Origin: Klebsiella pneumoniae
GTDB taxonomy: Bacteria; Myxococcota_A; UBA796; SXON01
Length of the DNA: 32,586 nt
Assembly: GCA_945867435.1 (NCBI GenBank)
Contig: CAMBIK010000014.1
Location: 1 to 32,586 of the forward strand
Direction of reading: 5' to 3'
Below, one piece after another: positions 12,992 to 23,855 of the stretch (within the stretch, counting starts at the first letter, position 1; each line of letters begins with the position of its first letter). The notes beneath the pieces were generated by a model. It saw only the letters and a list, made by a program, of their open reading frames with translations. It was not told where the DNA came from and did not search any database. A program made the translations under genes and the position numbers.

Positions 12992-13405
12992 ATGCGCGCC
13001 CGCGTCGGCCAGAGCACTGTAGAACTCGTGATGATGATCCCGGTGCTGTTCGGGCTCTGCTTCATGGTGGTCGAGCTTGCCTTGTGGCTGGGTGGCACTC
13101 ACTTCGTCACCTATGCGGCGTTTGCCGGGGCGCGTGCCCAGCAGGTGGGTCGGGATCCGGAGGCTGCCGTTGGCATGCTGCTCGACGGCCGTGCCACCCG
13201 GAGGGCCTCCACCAGCGGCGATGGTTCCGCGGTCACCATCTCGATGCCGTGGAAGGCCGACTTGCCATTCACCAGCGCGGTCGGCGATCTCACCTATGAA
13301 GTCACGGTCACCGCCGGCCCCAGCGAGGAAGACTACGAAGGCACCACGGGCAACGGCAAACGCGCCCAGCGGTACGGCGACAACAACTGCCAGGGTGGAT
13401 GTTGA
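12992..13405 (+). CDS. TadE-like pseudopilin
   Basis: A 137-residue protein with the TadE-family opening GQSTVELVMMIPVLFGLCFMVVELALW: a short basic head, Glu five residues into the hydrophobic segment, and one N-terminal membrane helix (about 11-35). The remaining 100 residues are exported and end in CQGGC. TadE proteins are minor pseudopilins of Flp-type pili or are used with other secretion systems; none of the Tad ATPase or secretin genes are in this window. It overlaps the next gene (13399). No ribosome-binding site is visible at its own start. Confidence 0.8.
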   Translation: MRARVGQSTVELVMMIPVLFGLCFMVVELALWLGGTHFVTYAAFAGARAQQVGRDPEAAVGMLLDGRATRRASTSGDGSAVTISMPWKADLPFTSAVGDLTYEVTVTAGPSEEDYEGTTGNGKRAQRYGDNNCQGGC

Positions 13406-14487
13406 ACCCCCGCAATCGTCGTGGGCAGGCTGCGGTCTTCGTGGCCCTTTCCCTGATGTCACTGCTGCTCGTCGTCGCCTTCGCGACCAACACGGGCATC
13501 GCCGTGAACGACCGCGTTCGCATGCAGGAAGCGGCCGACCTTGCCACCTACGCGGTGGCCTATAGCGAGGCCGCCTCGCTCAACGAGATCACGCAGAAGA
13601 ACAAAGCCATTGCCCAGTCGGTGGAAGATTGCCGCAGCGTGCTGGAGCACGGCGGCGGGCCCTGGTACACGCCCTGCAACTGCACCAACGTGGACCCGTT
13701 CGCCGAGATCGCGGTCGCCGCATGCCGGATGGACATCAGTTTTGCCATTTACGACTTCGTGTCGGAGGCTTCGTACAACAACTCAGTGGCACCCGCGATC
13801 CGGGCTGGAAAGGCGACTGCGGAGGCAAACTTCGCGGGAACGGGTGATCACACCAGCTTCTTCGAGGACATGTTCGGGTCGCCCACCGCCCGGTGGACCC
13901 ACTCCACGATGTGGACCACGCCCGCCGGCATGGCGGGTTTCAACTCTACTCTCGCGTCGTTCGAACAGGTGACCGACACCAAGTTCAACTACCAGTACAT
14001 CAAGACGTGCGGCCGCTGCGACATCCCCAGCATCGTCCTGAGCCCCACCTACGACTTCCCGACGTGGTTCTACAAACGCTCTCGCGACCCAGACGTGTGG
14101 GTGGCCGGTCGCGTGTCGGGCACACCCGAAAAGCGCTTTCTGGACAGCGACTACCGGGCCACGGGCCGGGACCGTGGCTACTTCGGGGCCTCCTCCACGG
14201 GGGGCGACGACCTGCTCGTTAGCTACGCCGTCGCGAAGCCCTACGATGGCAGCGTGGGGCCGAGCGAGCTGAGCGGGAACCAGCAGAACGGCAACGGGAA
14301 GGGAGGCAGGGGCGTGTACGCCTCCGACGCCGTGCGCTTTCCGGTCCTGTCGATGTACGACGAATATCGGGCGCGCATGGCCGGTATTCAGGATGGATTG
14401 GGTGGCGTGTTGTCGCCCACCACCCTCATCGCGCTCGACGGCGCCGAGCTCGGCAAGAGCTGGGACACGTCGCGGTTCGAACACTGA
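13399..14487 (+). CDS. TadG-like protein (Tad domain)
   Basis: A 362-residue protein whose N-terminus RRGQAAVFVALSLMSLLLVVAFATNTGIAVNDR...ADLATYAVAYSEA is the classical Tad domain: a hydrophobic segment followed by the 'R-x-Q-x-AADLA' helix. The rest is a large exported region without a domain I recognise. It contains closely spaced cysteines (CNC near 13676, CGRC near 14011), likely forming disulfides. The ATG at 13399 overlaps the TadE gene by seven bases and the stop shares TGATG with the next. It probably acts with the flanking TadE-like proteins in a pilus or envelope structure; that is inferred from synteny. Confidence 0.75.
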   Translation: MLNPRNRRGQAAVFVALSLMSLLLVVAFATNTGIAVNDRVRMQEAADLATYAVAYSEAASLNEITQKNKAIAQSVEDCRSVLEHGGGPWYTPCNCTNVDPFAEIAVAACRMDISFAIYDFVSEASYNNSVAPAIRAGKATAEANFAGTGDHTSFFEDMFGSPTARWTHSTMWTTPAGMAGFNSTLASFEQVTDTKFNYQYIKTCGRCDIPSIVLSPTYDFPTWFYKRSRDPDVWVAGRVSGTPEKRFLDSDYRATGRDRGYFGASSTGGDDLLVSYAVAKPYDGSVGPSELSGNQQNGNGKGGRGVYASDAVRFPVLSMYDEYRARMAGIQDGLGGVLSPTTLIALDGAELGKSWDTSRFEH

Positions 14488-18421: not shown

Positions 18422-18859
18422 ATGCTGGAAGTACGGTTTAACCAGCAACTCTCGATGGACGCCCGCGGCCGGGTCACGCTCCCCGCACGCCTGAAGGCGG
18501 CGCTCGACACCCACCGAATCTACAGTCTCGTGTTCATCGCCCACTCAGGGCGGCTGCGCGGGTACACTCCGGCCGACTTCACCGAGAGGGTGGAAAGGCC
18601 TCTGCTTGGAAACGATCCCTTCGATCCTTATGAAGACGAAAAGCAGCTCCTGCGGCTGGGCTCGGCCTGCGAGCTGGATGTGGACCGGCAGGGTCGGTTG
18701 GTCGTTCCTTCGGAACTGCGTGATCTCACCGGGCTAACTGACAAGATCACGATGGTCTCGTTGCTGGACCGCCTCGAGATCTGGGGCGCTGACGCGTTCC
18801 AAGCGGCGTTCGCCGACGCGCGTGCCCGTCGGGATGCGCTGGGAGGGGTGGGTGGATGA
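18422..18859 (+). CDS. mraZ: MraZ transcriptional regulator
   Basis: A 145-residue DNA-binding protein that forms rings and controls the dcw operon from its own promoter. Two SpoVT-AbrB-like halves are seen: LSMDARGRVTLPARLKAAL (about 10-28) and ELDVDRQGRLVVPSELRDL (about 85-103). The ATG at 18422 fits the family length but has only weak purines upstream. The strong AGGAGGAG at 18378 instead faces an in-frame ACG at 18392, which would add ten residues. I keep the ATG. It overlaps rsmH by eight bases and leads the cell-wall cluster. Confidence 0.92.
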   Translation: MLEVRFNQQLSMDARGRVTLPARLKAALDTHRIYSLVFIAHSGRLRGYTPADFTERVERPLLGNDPFDPYEDEKQLLRLGSACELDVDRQGRLVVPSELRDLTGLTDKITMVSLLDRLEIWGADAFQAAFADARARRDALGGVGG

Positions 18860-19751
18860 ACGGTCGCACCTCCCCGTTCTGCTCGACGACGTTCTTGAAC
18901 TGCTCGGCGTTCGCGAAGGTGGTTTGTACGCGGATGGCACCCTGGGCTTCGCGGGGCACGCGGCCGGCATTGTCGCGCGCGGTGGCCGCATCGTCGGCAC
19001 CGACCGAGACCCGATGGCTATCGCGGCCGCTCGGCAACGCATCGGCGGGGAAGTCGAACTGCACCACGCGCGCTTCACAGAGCTGCCCGCGATCCTCGGT
19101 GCTCGCCGCGTCGACGGCATCTTGTTGGACCTTGGGGTGTCGTCGCCCCAGCTCGACCGTCCGGAACGGGGCTTCTCGTTCCGCCTCAACGGCCCCCTGG
19201 ACATGCGGATGGACCCTTCGACCGGCGAATCCGCGGCCGATTGGCTCGCCCGCGTCGATCAGGCGGAGCTCGAATCGGCCCTTTGGAAGTATGGCGAGGA
19301 ACGTCATGGTCGCCGGGTGGCCCGCGCCATCCTCGCCCGCCGGGCAGACGAAGAGGAGGAACCCTTACGCACCACCCGCCAGCTCGCGGAGCTTGTCGCC
19401 AAAGTGGTGCCTTCCGAAGGTCGAATTCACCCTGCCACGCGCACCTTTCAGGGCATTCGCATCGCCATCAACGACGAACTTGGCGAGCTCGAAAGGGCCT
19501 TGGATGCCTTTCCACAGTGCCTCGCCCCGGGCGGGAGGCTGGTCGTGATCAGCTTCCATTCCCTGGAAGATCGTGCTGTGAAGGCATGCTTTCGTCGGCT
19601 CGTCGGAGATGGCGGGCCGCGGGATCTCTACGGCAACCCCGTTTCCTCGTCCGCCTTCCGCCTCGTCGAGCGTCGCGCCCGCAAGGGCGACTCCGACCCC
19701 AACCCGCGGGCGCGCTCCGCCCGCCTGCGCGCCCTTGAGAGGCTTCCATGA
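18852..19751 (+). CDS. rsmH: 16S rRNA m4C1402 methyltransferase RsmH
   Basis: RsmH (MraW) methylates N4 of C1402 in 16S rRNA and is nearly always second in the dcw cluster. The protein has 299 residues from GTG 18852, preceded by GGGAGGGG, and then reads VDERSHLPVLLDDVLELLG like other members. SAM-binding DGTLGFAGHAAGI and GTDRDPMAI are seen; the family motif is usually G-R-GGHS, here F-A-GHA. LLDLGVSSPQLDRPERGFSF, PLDMRMD, HPATRTFQGIRIAINDEL and VISFHSLEDR are all conserved. An earlier in-frame ATG (18834) lies inside mraZ. It ends by ATGA overlap with ftsL. Confidence 0.94.
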   Translation: MDERSHLPVLLDDVLELLGVREGGLYADGTLGFAGHAAGIVARGGRIVGTDRDPMAIAAARQRIGGEVELHHARFTELPAILGARRVDGILLDLGVSSPQLDRPERGFSFRLNGPLDMRMDPSTGESAADWLARVDQAELESALWKYGEERHGRRVARAILARRADEEEEPLRTTRQLAELVAKVVPSEGRIHPATRTFQGIRIAINDELGELERALDAFPQCLAPGGRLVVISFHSLEDRAVKACFRRLVGDGGPRDLYGNPVSSSAFRLVERRARKGDSDPNPRARSARLRALERLP

Positions 19752-20080
19752 GCACCACCACCGGCGTCCGCACCTCTACCCTCACGCTCCCAGGCTTCGA
19801 TGCCGCGGCCCCGGAAGTGCGGCTGCTCAGTCGGCTGCTGGGCGTGATGATCTTCGTGGCCGCCGCGTTGTCCGTGTACCTCTGGAGCCGGATGCAGGTG
19901 CGGGAAACGGCGCTTGCGCTCGATGAAGCCCGGGGACAGCTTGTTGAGGCGCAGACTCACCACGACCGTCTGCTCGTGGAACGGACCATGTTGCGCTCGC
20001 CTGGGCGCCTGGGGGCGGTGGCGGCCAGCCTGGACCTGTCGGCCCCGGTTTCGGTCCAAGATGTGAGCGCGCCAAGGTGA
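19748..20080 (+). CDS. ftsL: FtsL-like cell division protein
   Basis: A 110-residue bitopic membrane protein: cytoplasmic head (1-28), one membrane helix (about 29-47, LLGVMIFVAAALSVYLW), then a heptad-rich periplasmic segment (about 50-80) that would form a coiled coil. FtsL, with FtsB and FtsQ, activates FtsW-FtsI at the septum. Sequence similarity in this family is weak. Assignment rests on topology, size and position between rsmH (ATGA overlap) and ftsI (GTGA overlap). Confidence 0.78.
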   Translation: MSTTTGVRTSTLTLPGFDAAAPEVRLLSRLLGVMIFVAAALSVYLWSRMQVRETALALDEARGQLVEAQTHHDRLLVERTMLRSPGRLGAVAASLDLSAPVSVQDVSAPR

Positions 20081-22194
20081 AAACATCCGGCCGCAAATCC
20101 AAGAAGAACAGCCTTGAGGGCTTCTGGGGGGCCGTGGCGCCGGGGCGGGTCACGCCTGTCACCGACGCCGAGCTGCTCGCCGAGTCGCGGTTTCGGGCTC
20201 GCGGAGTCTTCGTGGGGATCGCGATCGTGATGGCGTTGCTGACCGTGCGCGCCGGATGGGTGATGGGTGTGCCGGATGAGCGGCTGGAACGGCACGGGCG
20301 GGAACAGTTTCGGTTTGCTGTAGAACTTCGCGGTCGGCGCGGCGCCATAGTGGACCGCCAGGGGCGGGTGCTGGCGGCTACCGTGAAGCTCCCTTCGTTG
20401 TACGCGAATCCGGCACGCATCGCGCCCGAGGCGGTCGAGGCGCGGCTCGCAGCGATCACCGCGGCGACTGGCAAGGAAGTGGACTGGGTGCGGGCGCGCT
20501 TTGAGAAGCGGAACGGGCGCCTCCTGCAGGAAGTGAAGCTCGGCGCCTCCCTGGACCCGGATGCCGCGAAGGCGATCGTGGCCGGTCTCCCTCGCGATCA
20601 GATGTGGCTGGTGCAGGAACCGGTGCGGGTCTACCCGGGACGCGACCTGGCGGCGCCGCTCCTGGGCTTCACCGACGTGTTCGACGACGGCGCGGGGGGC
20701 CTGGAGAAGATCCTGAACAAGGAACTCTCGGGCGATACCCTGCGCGTGCTCCAGGAAAAAGACCGGAAGGGGCGCGTTCTGGATGGCGGAATTGACGCCG
20801 AGCGGGCGGCGAACGCCGGGCATTCGGTGCGGCTCACGATCGATGCGTCGATTCAGTACGCGACGGAGCGGGCCCTCGACGAGGCGATGGCGGTATCGCA
20901 GCCCGAGGCGGCCATGGCCGTGGTGATGGATGTACACACCGGCGCGATCCTCGCGATGGCCTCGCGCCCTGGAGGCAACCCGAACGATGGAGAATCGAGG
21001 GCACACCAGGAGAACTTCAAGAATCGTCCTGCGATGGATCAGGTCGAGCCGGGGAGCGTTTTCAAGCCCTTTGTGGCTGCGGCAGCCATGGAAGAAGGGC
21101 TCGTGCGGCCCGAGACCATGATGGATTGTGAGATGGGCAACTGGGCCGTGGGTAGCAAGGTGATCCACGACGACCATGAGAAGGGCGTGATCTCCCTCAC
21201 CGAGGTAATCAAGTACAGCTCAAACATCGGCGCGGCCAAGTTGGGCTTTATGCTTGGCGCAGACACGACGCTCCAGTACCTCCGCGACTTTGGCTTCGGA
21301 CGCTCTACAGGCCTTGGCCTTCCCGGCGAGGTGTCGGGGGTGATGCGCTCCGCGGCCAGCATCAAGCCGATTGAGCTCGCCACGACCTCCTTCGGACAGG
21401 GGGTCACCGCATCGTCGGTGCAGCTCGTGGCCGGGGTCGCGGCCCTGGCGAACGGCGGGATGCGGATGTCTCCACGTCTCGTCGATGCGGTGCTGGACCG
21501 CCACGGCGAGGTGGAAATGGTCCGAGAGCCTCGCGAGGATCGCAGGGTGATCTCGGAGAAGACCGCGGCTAGCATCTCCCGGATGATGGAAACGGTGACC
21601 GAAGAGGGCGGCACCGGCACGCGGGCGCGGGTCAGTGGCTACCGCGTGGCCGGCAAGACCGGCACCGCGCAAAAGGTCGAGAACGGCGTGTACAGCCCGA
21701 CCAAGCGCGTTTCTTCGTTCGTCGGCTTCCTACCTGCGGATCGTCCGGAAGTGGCCATCGCGGTCATCGTGGATACGCCCACCGTGGGTTCGAAGTTCGG
21801 CGGCATCGCCGCTGCCCCGGCGTTCTCCACGATCGGGGCCTTCACCATGCGCTATCTGGGGATCGCCCCCGACGCTCCGGGCACGGTCGTTGCCCCCGCC
21901 CCCGGCATGCCGGTCGCCCCAGAAGGTGCCCTGGCGGTGGCGCCCCCCAAGCCATCCAAGGTTGTTCCCTTCGCCTCGGTGCTTCCGGCCGGTCCGGTCG
22001 AGATCGCTGCGTCCGCGACAGGTTCGTGGGTGGTGCCCGACCTCTCGGGTCGTACCCTTCGGGCCGCGCTCGCCGCCCTGGCACCTTCCGGCGTGGACCT
22101 TCACGTCCAGGGCTCGGGTCGTGTGGTTTCGCAAGAGCCGCTGGCCGGTGCTGTGCTCGCTCCAGGAGAGCGGGTTGTCCTTCATCTGAACTGA
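20077..22194 (+). CDS. ftsI: Septal transpeptidase FtsI (class B PBP) with PASTA domain
   Basis: A 705-residue penicillin-binding protein that cross-links septal peptidoglycan with FtsW. It has a basic cytoplasmic head, a membrane helix (about 45-65), the PBP dimerisation module (RGRRGAIVDRQGRVLA), then the transpeptidase domain with catalytic S327-VFK, S381-S-N383 and K527-TG. After a Pro/Ala-rich linker (about 600-650) comes a single PASTA domain (VVPDLSGRTLRAALAALAPSG...), which binds muropeptide or beta-lactam-like ligands in other proteins. The PASTA tail is familiar in Gram-positive SpoVD/PBP2x and also occurs in some deltaproteobacterial FtsI. The start is GTG 20077 by overlap with ftsL. 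A 230-base structured gap follows before murE. Confidence 0.93.
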   Translation: MKTSGRKSKKNSLEGFWGAVAPGRVTPVTDAELLAESRFRARGVFVGIAIVMALLTVRAGWVMGVPDERLERHGREQFRFAVELRGRRGAIVDRQGRVLAATVKLPSLYANPARIAPEAVEARLAAITAATGKEVDWVRARFEKRNGRLLQEVKLGASLDPDAAKAIVAGLPRDQMWLVQEPVRVYPGRDLAAPLLGFTDVFDDGAGGLEKILNKELSGDTLRVLQEKDRKGRVLDGGIDAERAANAGHSVRLTIDASIQYATERALDEAMAVSQPEAAMAVVMDVHTGAILAMASRPGGNPNDGESRAHQENFKNRPAMDQVEPGSVFKPFVAAAAMEEGLVRPETMMDCEMGNWAVGSKVIHDDHEKGVISLTEVIKYSSNIGAAKLGFMLGADTTLQYLRDFGFGRSTGLGLPGEVSGVMRSAASIKPIELATTSFGQGVTASSVQLVAGVAALANGGMRMSPRLVDAVLDRHGEVEMVREPREDRRVISEKTAASISRMMETVTEEGGTGTRARVSGYRVAGKTGTAQKVENGVYSPTKRVSSFVGFLPADRPEVAIAVIVDTPTVGSKFGGIAAAPAFSTIGAFTMRYLGIAPDAPGTVVAPAPGMPVAPEGALAVAPPKPSKVVPFASVLPAGPVEIAASATGSWVVPDLSGRTLRAALAALAPSGVDLHVQGSGRVVSQEPLAGAVLAPGERVVLHLN

Positions 22195-22424
22195 TTCTTT
22201 TTCATTCCCCATGTCTTCCGGGTGGGTCCGCCAGAATGGCGGGCCCGGCCGCGGCTCCCCGCCGCGGCTTTGGTCCCCGAGCAGGTTCGCCCTCATGGGC
22301 GGCCGTTCCCCTTGAGCTGGGTCCTCCAGCTCCCGCTCAGAACCTGCTGCCGACCCTACCCGCCGCCGACCTTCCCCGCAGGGCGGCCCCATCCGGAAGA
22401 CCCCCTCCCTACCGAATCCCGTCG
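22195..22424 (+). promoter_or_regulatory. Structured leader between ftsI and murE, candidate cis-regulatory RNA
   Basis: The only sizeable gap inside the dcw run. Six helices can be drawn by eye: 22224-22233 with 22237-22246 (10 pairs, one G-U, GAA loop); 22248-22255 with 22261-22268 (8 pairs); 22280-22288 with 22340-22348 (9 pairs), closing a junction that holds 22289-22292/22297-22300 and 22314-22320/22326-22332 (4 and 7 pairs); and 22362-22367 with 22382-22387 (6 pairs), whose loop contains CUUCCCC. No T tract follows the helices, so simple termination is unlikely. The murE ATG lacks a ribosome-binding site. The stretch is open in the murE frame but its translation is low-complexity Pro/Ala/Arg, so I do not call it coding. 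Confidence 0.5.
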
Positions 22425-23855
22425 ATGTTCCTCGAAACTGTTGTTGCCGCCCTTCCGGGCGCGTGTCTGGTCCGGGGCTCCGGGGCGAGACAGGTGCGTC
22501 GGGTCACCGACCGCGACGCGGATGTCGGCGCCGACGACGTTTTCGTCGCGGTGAAGGGCGATAACTTTGATGGGCATCGTTGCGTGCCGAATGTGCGTGG
22601 TGCCGCGGTGATCGTGGACCGTGATGTGGTGGCGCCCGAGGGCGTGGCCGTGGTCCGGGTGCCGAACACCCGACTGGCCCTGGCACCAGCCAGCGCGGCG
22701 GCCCTGGAGTGGCCGGGGCGAAAGGTGCCCACGGTCGCGGTGACGGGCACCAACGGTAAGACCACCACGACGTTTCTGCTAGCGGCCATCGCACGGGCCG
22801 CGGGCCTGGTTCCGGGCATCATCGGCACGACCGGGAACTACGTCGGCGACCATCGCATCGAGACGGAACACACCAGTCCGACGCCTCCCGTGGTCCAAGG
22901 CCTCCTGGCGCAGATGCGCACCGCCAAGGTGGGGTTGTGCGCCCTGGAGGCCTCCAGCATCGGCCTGGCGTCGTGGCGGTGTGATGCGATCCCCTTTCGC
23001 GCCGCGATCTTTACGAACTTGACTCGCGACCATCTCGACTGGCATGGAACGATGGATGCCTATGCTGCCGCCAAAGCAAGGTTGTTCCACGAGCTTTTGG
23101 AGGGGACGGCCATCCTTAATGCGGAAGACCCTGCGCACGCGGCCATGCTTCCCTCCGGCCGGGCCGTGTGGACCTTTGCGACACGCGGTCCCGCTGACTT
23201 CCGGAGCACGCTTACCTCGGAGCGCTGGGAAGGTCTCGAGGCGGCGATCGCAACGCCGCGCGGGACCGGACGTCTCCGCCTCCCCATGGTGGGCAGTCAC
23301 AACCTGCAGAATGCCCTCGGGGCCGTGGCGGCGGCGATGGCGCTGGGCATCGACCTTGACACCGCGCTTTCGGGGCTCGCGACCTGTACGGGAGCCCCGG
23401 GAAGGCTGGAGCGCGTCGGGCCGGACCGCCCCTTCGGGGTGTTTGTGGACTACGCCCACACGGACGATGCGCTTACTCGCGTGCTTGCGGAGCTTCGCAG
23501 GCTTCGCCCAGCGCGGATCCTGTGTGTTTTCGGATGCGGCGGCGACCGGGACCGCGGGAAGCGCCCGCTGATGGGGGCCGCGGTGGGGGCCGGGGCGGAC
23601 CTTGCCATTGTCACCAGCGACAACCCTCGGAGCGAGGATCCGTTGGCGATCATCGCCGAGATTCTGCCCGGCGTCGGGACCGCCCCTCACCGGGTCGAGC
23701 CCGACCGTGCGGCTGCCATCCGCCTCGCGCTCAGCCTCGCCCAGCCCGGCGATGTCGTACTCATCGCGGGAAAGGGACACGAGTCCTTCCAGGAGATCGC
23801 CGGAGTGAAGCATCCTTTCGATGACCGTGCCCACGCACGCGGTGAAACGGCATGA
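22425..23855 (+). CDS. murE: UDP-MurNAc-tripeptide synthetase MurE (meso-DAP adding)
   Basis: MurE adds the third amino acid to UDP-MurNAc-L-Ala-D-Glu. The protein has 476 residues from ATG 22425, giving the family's usual N-terminal domain with DADVGADDVFVAVKGDNFDGHRC. The ATP loop VTGTNGKTTTTF is near residues 106-117, followed by TSPTPP (substrate loop) and the YAHTDDALTRVL segment. The DNPR motif at 399-402 (TSDNPRSEDP) is typical of enzymes that add meso-diaminopimelate rather than lysine, so a DAP-type wall is predicted. No ribosome-binding site precedes the ATG, and the frame stays open upstream to 22026, but that part overlaps ftsI. It ends by ATGA overlap with murF. Confidence 0.94.
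   Translation: MFLETVVAALPGACLVRGSGARQVRRVTDRDADVGADDVFVAVKGDNFDGHRCVPNVRGAAVIVDRDVVAPEGVAVVRVPNTRLALAPASAAALEWPGRKVPTVAVTGTNGKTTTTFLLAAIARAAGLVPGIIGTTGNYVGDHRIETEHTSPTPPVVQGLLAQMRTAKVGLCALEASSIGLASWRCDAIPFRAAIFTNLTRDHLDWHGTMDAYAAAKARLFHELLEGTAILNAEDPAHAAMLPSGRAVWTFATRGPADFRSTLTSERWEGLEAAIATPRGTGRLRLPMVGSHNLQNALGAVAAAMALGIDLDTALSGLATCTGAPGRLERVGPDRPFGVFVDYAHTDDALTRVLAELRRLRPARILCVFGCGGDRDRGKRPLMGAAVGAGADLAIVTSDNPRSEDPLAIIAEILPGVGTAPHRVEPDRAAAIRLALSLAQPGDVVLIAGKGHESFQEIAGVKHPFDDRAHARGETA

Follow-up and report, generated by a model that had tools for sequence, protein, structure and literature searches.

The 230-nt interval between the essential cell-wall genes ftsI and murE (positions 22195–22424, plus strand) carries a real structured RNA, sense to the two genes, whose fold is kept by compensating mutations. 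In this uncultured group of bacteria, most of the order's sampled genomes have the RNA; the genomes sampled elsewhere in the phylum lack it. It is a new RNA family of a known kind, a structured intercistronic leader, possibly with a boxA.

The window, namely the whole 32,586-nt stretch that was analysed, is one contig of a 3.79-Mb genome that is only 76% complete, and contains a dcw cluster featuring rsmH (18822–19751), a small ftsL-like ORF, ftsI, murE, murF, mraY, murD and further genes. The gene upstream of the RNA, ftsI (20077–22194, plus strand), encodes a PASTA-type penicillin-binding protein; the downstream gene, murE (22425–23855, plus strand), matches TIGR01085 (1.9e-128), and its start is kept in the relatives. 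Neighbouring genes of the cluster overlap or sit within about 50 nt of each other, with the sole exception of the 230 nt that separate the ftsI stop (22194) from the murE ATG (22425). A preliminary description of this DNA had called attention to this gap in an otherwise tightly packed cluster, which the gene coordinates bear out, and had proposed that it contains a multi-helix RNA leader, which is supported by the covariation and the order-wide conservation described below. Farther upstream, 5′ of the dcw genes, the window encodes a choice-of-anchor-D domain protein (NF012200; 10743–12971) and, at 13399–14487, a protein whose TadE-like match falls below threshold.

The predicted folding energy of the gap, −111.5 kcal/mol (z = −5.65), was reached by none of 200 shuffles. 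As 21 of 210 windows of equal length (10%) in the same GC-rich contig fold at least as well, the fold energy alone is weak evidence, and the reality of the structured RNA was decided by comparison. The gap DNA is alignable among same-genus genomes. We used an alignment of 11 such genomes (alignment A2), trimmed to the closing helix (22213–22401), with a 57-pair structure; the alignment was not fitted to a model, but its structure was hand-drawn while the sequences were being inspected. In A2, 89% of the cells were paired (78.7% in shuffles), 26 of the 57 pairs had changes on both sides (17.0 in shuffles), and 75 sequence-pair cells were changed on both sides (26.5 ± 4.2 in shuffles); none of 500 shuffles reached these values. 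When the partners were slid by 1–3 columns, pairing fell to 38–51% and double changes to 9–21. Larger alignments of 15 family sequences and of 21 sequences including three other families, both fitted to the covariance model and hence biased towards it, had double changes in 46/57 pairs (166 cells) and 52/57 pairs (286 cells), respectively. The G-U cells numbered 46 and the A-C cells 12, and therefore the RNA lies on the plus strand, sense to ftsI-murE. Conservation and covariation in relatives, on which the preliminary description had made its proposal depend, are thus both present, with compensatory changes far above the shuffled and slid controls.

The fold is closed by a long-range helix, P1, whose 5′ strand (22213–22232; 14 bp, a mismatch and 5 bp) pairs with 22382–22401. 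Its 19 pairs with one mismatch enclose about 190 nt. It is defined both by covariation and by a long-range helix score of 46.8 (shuffles: mean 25.3, maximum 29.8); 98.1% of its cells are paired in the 11 genus sequences, and 13 of the 19 pairs changed on both sides among the 15 family sequences. Of all the features compared between families, it varies least. The 9-pair stem given in the preliminary description proved to be real, but P1 was overlooked there. Next to P1 lies an A-rich joining strand, AGAAU (22233–22237), with an AGAA/AAAA/ACAC-type joiner throughout the family, followed by P2 (22238–22243 paired with 22359–22364), which also covaries (96.4% of cells paired; both-side changes at 4/6 pairs in the 15 family sequences). 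Within P2, the P3 hairpin (22248–22268) consists of the strands 22248–22255 and 22261–22268 and a UCCCC loop (22256–22260), and all eight of its pairs changed on both sides in the 15 sequences. The P4 arm (22281–22347), likewise supported by covariation, is composed of P4 (22281–22288/22340–22347), P4′ (22297–22302/22333–22338) and the P4b hairpin (22314–22320/22326–22332), for which the corresponding numbers were 8/8, 3/6 and 7/7. P4 is the 9-pair stem 22280–22288/22340–22348 noticed initially. The 3′ strand of the internal loop (22365–22381) contains a non-conserved CUUCCCC and a conserved GCAG, as seen in alignments A2 and A4. Conserved unpaired sequence is scarce, being limited to the AGAA-type joiner, GCAG and the UCCCC loop, and helices and arm lengths vary freely from family to family. 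Two further pairings were discarded: a weak GGU/ACC helix (22272–22274/22353–22355; 48.5% of cells paired), and a local hairpin, CCGCC-AGAAU-GGCGG, that would join the P2 5′ strand with 22228–22232 as an alternative to P1/P2. As the latter does not covary, and 271 of 500 shuffles gave an equally good one, there is no evidence for a two-state switch.

We also considered translation of the gap as an extended MurE N-terminus, the alternative named in the preliminary description. The murE frame is open 5′ of the ATG in the source genome. However, the gap lengths within the genus (229, 230, 239, 241, 246, 247, 251 and 255 nt) do not keep the reading frame, stops interrupt the murE frame inside the gap in three relatives (L051, L053 and L049), and the position-specific GC of the gap is that of non-coding DNA. 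The extension was rejected on this frame and codon-position evidence.

The distribution of the RNA was followed with covariance models. Model R1 identified exactly one copy per genome, always at ftsI-murE, in 11/11 same-genus genomes, and found the held-out L053, L052, L047 and L048 at 1e-8 to 1e-11. Model R2 found the held-out L049 and L061 and, in other families, L058, L161, L165 and L056; three of the nine matches listed in this search lay outside the gap, with E values of 0.03 to 0.75. Model R3 found the held-out L147 and L045. Taken together, the held-out members found include further genera and families of the order. A search of 189 phylum genomes with stricter filters gave no match outside the order. 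Within the order the ftsI-murE gap is 170–730 nt long except in two genomes; elsewhere in the class and phylum, ftsI and murE of most genomes overlap or nearly touch, with one outlier of 154 nt; for some outgroups the lengths depend on approximate MurE match starts. L055 (G038) and L162 (G042) have gaps of 2 and 9 nt, respectively, and no model match at the locus; they appear to have lost the RNA, so that such loss is evidently possible within the order. In G050, G048 and G036 (L153, L157, L063 and L185), no ftsI was found in the stretch examined upstream of murE, so that gene order or gap size differs there. The gaps of other families are often 350–730 nt long (L054, L057, L059, L060, L062, L064, L066, L150, L152, L155, L163–L165 and L183), which makes it probable that the core is followed there by additional structured domains. 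A CCAATCC-GCGTGACTCCCTG stretch and a repeated CTGCTGA are common to four f5 genomes; the alignment of these four, made without controls, has 148 consensus pairs, 48 of them with double changes. A quick MurE tree tentatively put the order near Myxococcota sequences.

No known family accounts for the element. The Rfam scan that the preliminary description had called for (Rfam 15, gathering thresholds) gave nothing in the gap, and relaxing the cut-off to E ≤ 10 added just one match, to mir-1986, which is due to chance and lies outside the gap; our search of the open-licence literature found no paper on such an ftsI-murE element. The mraW RNA of Actinomycetales (RF01746) has a conserved CUUCCCC terminal loop, that is, a C-rich hairpin loop. 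The ftsI-murE RNA likewise is an element of the dcw cluster with a C-rich hairpin loop, but it is a multi-helix domain, it lies after ftsI and not, like the mraW RNA, at the start of the cluster ahead of mraW/rsmH, and it does not match the covariance model: RF01746 had no match in the window at E ≤ 10 and none over the cut-off in 19 relatives, while the C. glutamicum control matched. The CUUCCCC at 22371–22377, which the preliminary description had placed in the last hairpin loop and likened to the mraW loop, belongs in fact to the internal-loop 3′ strand and is replaced in relatives; the likeness is due to chance, and the conserved C-rich loop is UCCCC at 22256–22260. With 6S RNA (RF00013) the element shares a length of about 190 nt and a long closing helix, and differs from it in its branched interior. 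Identity with 6S was rejected, as 6S sits elsewhere in genomes of the order, with separate loci in families f2, f3, f5 and f6, and G025 has both 6S and a long ftsI-murE gap. The RF00013 model had no match in the 15 family f1 genomes searched (G000–G014), which suggests that 6S is divergent or missing in this family.

The RNA is preceded by a single-stranded motif, UUCUUUUUCAU (22195–22205), that is conserved in sequence and spacing. Its UCUUU is unchanged in 21/21 family members. The spacing to P1 is 16–21 nt in all but one of these, L045, where it is 29 nt. Because this spacing is nearly fixed while UCUUU follows the ftsI stop by anything between 1 and 59 nt, UCUUU belongs to the RNA and not to ftsI. 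Of the 44 order gaps, 21 have the strict pattern UCUUUNN[CA]A within their initial 70 nt (300 shuffles: mean 0.8, maximum 5). The rrn operons of the same order have the boxA sequences GGUCUUUGAAAA in the leader and GCUCUUUGACAUC and GUUCUUUUACAUC in the spacer. Five rrn leaders of the order (L197, L198, L199, L203 and L205) have a common boxA, GGTCTTTGAAA, about 100–230 nt 5′ of 16S, and the 23S-proximal spacers have a different one (CTCTTTGACATC, TTCTTTTACATC). When the motif is compared with the rrn boxA of the order (GGTCTTTGAAA, GCTCTTTGACA) and with the gamma-proteobacterial consensus GYTCTTTAANA (PMC5725501), the conserved UCUUU and CA agree and the stretch between them agrees more poorly; positions 8–9 are mostly pyrimidines, where the same-order rrn boxA has GA/UA. 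Judged by its sequence, the UCUUU-NN-CA motif is thus a candidate boxA that resembles that of rrn. Outside rRNA, a boxA at suhB acts on Rho and translation (PMC5725501), and a further published analogue is the antitermination complex with the rRNA leader–trailer helix (PMC10250234). The ftsI-murE element is like such rrn boxA/Nus elements (rRNA leaders; suhB, PMC5725501) in that, downstream of a UCUUU-type motif, a long-range helix closes a long stretch of structured, untranslated RNA; it differs in its location in a cell-wall operon, in positions 8–9 and in that NusB binding is only putative. The motif does not define a genome-wide regulon: nearly all of the 15 inspected sites overlap long open frames, L233, L235 and L244 being less clear.

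In the 44 order gaps there are 24 hairpins with a UCCCC loop and a stem of 6 bp or more (0.31 per shuffled set, maximum 4), and only four in 800 kb of strand (400-kb genome sample), with one in the window. Their stems are unrelated between families; the loop is kept and the stem is not. A conserved GGGGA partner for loop–loop pairing within the RNA was looked for and none was found. From P1 a C-rich, G-poor single-stranded linker without a Shine-Dalgarno sequence (22402–22424) leads into murE; CCCCCUCCCU follows P1 here and other C-rich linkers in relatives, none with a terminator U-run. The GC-rich hairpin plus U-run expected of an intrinsic-terminator attenuator or riboswitch is therefore not what precedes the gene. 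The pooled linkers of 21 family members contain 65% C and 11% G, and from this composition the linker may be rut-like; elsewhere in the genome there is roughly one equally C-rich island for every 11 kb of strand, by a criterion for which the 23-nt linker of the window is too short. The observation in the preliminary description that murE lacks a ribosome-binding site holds throughout: a Shine-Dalgarno sequence before murE is absent in 21/21 family members, and GGAG, GAGG and AGGA are absent in 43/44 order gaps. Closely related members are not independent, so independent events are fewer than the motif, hairpin and linker counts imply; the recurrence in families f1, f3, f5 and f6 is a stronger point than counts from close relatives.

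On the basis of the observed structure, strand, location, single copy, motif spacing and conserved loop, we favour, with somewhat less than even confidence, an order-specific RNA of the ftsI-murE operon that acts as a boxA-type antitermination leader controlling transcription into, or translation of, murE. The RNA would be made as part of the ftsI-murE operon transcript. As polymerase exits the ftsI frame, the boxA-like motif would load NusB/S10 (the Nus complex), which may keep polymerase Rho-resistant over about 200 untranslated, Rho-prone nucleotides. Tethering of the 5′ end to polymerase would favour closure of the long P1, by analogy with the rRNA leader–trailer helix, and a protein or a second RNA might dock on the UCCCC loop. 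The folded domain would then set polymerase and ribosome traffic into murE and the genes behind it, as a control point at which the wall-precursor genes, beginning with murE, are uncoupled from the division gene ftsI. Setting of the FtsI:MurE ratio by the RNA is possible and compatible with this mechanism. Against the mechanism speak the departure from rrn boxA at positions 8–9, the presence of equally C-rich islands elsewhere in the genome, and the two genomes of the order with almost no gap.

The antitermination mechanism and its main rival both have precedents at the same operon or with the same factors (PMC5725501, PMC5089854, PMC6156199, PMC7815308), none of them in the present arrangement. 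The rival, unlikely in our judgement, is that RNase III cuts at the ~20-bp P1 to release from the operon transcript a stable trans-acting sRNA, with UCCCC as a C-rich seed for purine-rich ribosome-binding sites. A long, near-perfect and covarying P1, a loop conserved though its stem is not, and the missing GGGGA partner would suit an excised RNA. The operon, moreover, yields sRNAs elsewhere. E. coli has in its ftsI region the structured ftsI-decRNA (173 nt; PMC6156199) and, from the same operon, the ORF-internal sRNA FtsO (PMC7815308); decRNA lies within the ftsI coding sequence, whereas the present RNA is non-coding and past the stop. UpsM of R. sphaeroides (PMC5089854) is also an sRNA from a clade-restricted long structured leader in the dcw cluster, but it precedes the first gene, and an intrinsic terminator marks its end. 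Against excision, the strict murE synteny suits cis action, and the UCCCC loop is short for a seed. A rather unlikely extension would have the order use an rRNA-like arrangement (boxA, long closing helix and excised folded RNA) in a cell-wall operon, making a dedicated small RNA whose UCCCC loop links the growth or ribosome-synthesis machinery (Nus factors) to wall-precursor synthesis.

It is quite doubtful that the RNA is an mRNA processing or stability element, in which P1, as an RNase III site or a block to decay, would divide the ftsI message from that of murE and set the proportion of the two, the interior being only structural; this agrees with the constancy of the closing helix between families, but the UCCCC loop, the 5′ motif and the helices of the interior are conserved as well, beyond the needs of a cleavage site. 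The idea of the preliminary description, a riboswitch whose junction binds a wall precursor, has in its favour a multi-helix domain directly 5′ of a wall-precursor gene; we consider it improbable in view of the little conserved unpaired sequence, the free change of helices and arm lengths between families, the lack of covariation in the one competing hairpin examined, and the C-rich sequence without a terminator U-run after P1. A chance fold in GC-rich DNA or an overlooked coding stretch, for which the unremarkable fold energy and the open upstream murE frame might speak, deserves practically no credence in the face of covariation far above the controls and of relatives whose gaps are not multiples of three and contain in-frame stops.

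The dcw cluster is among the most conserved bacterial gene clusters. The RNA described here provides a defined, testable control point inside this cluster and bears on how its division genes are uncoupled from its precursor genes. Retention of the UCCCC loop on stems unrelated to each other predicts a partner that acts in trans, and if the boxA reading is true, the rRNA antitermination machinery would be tied to wall synthesis.
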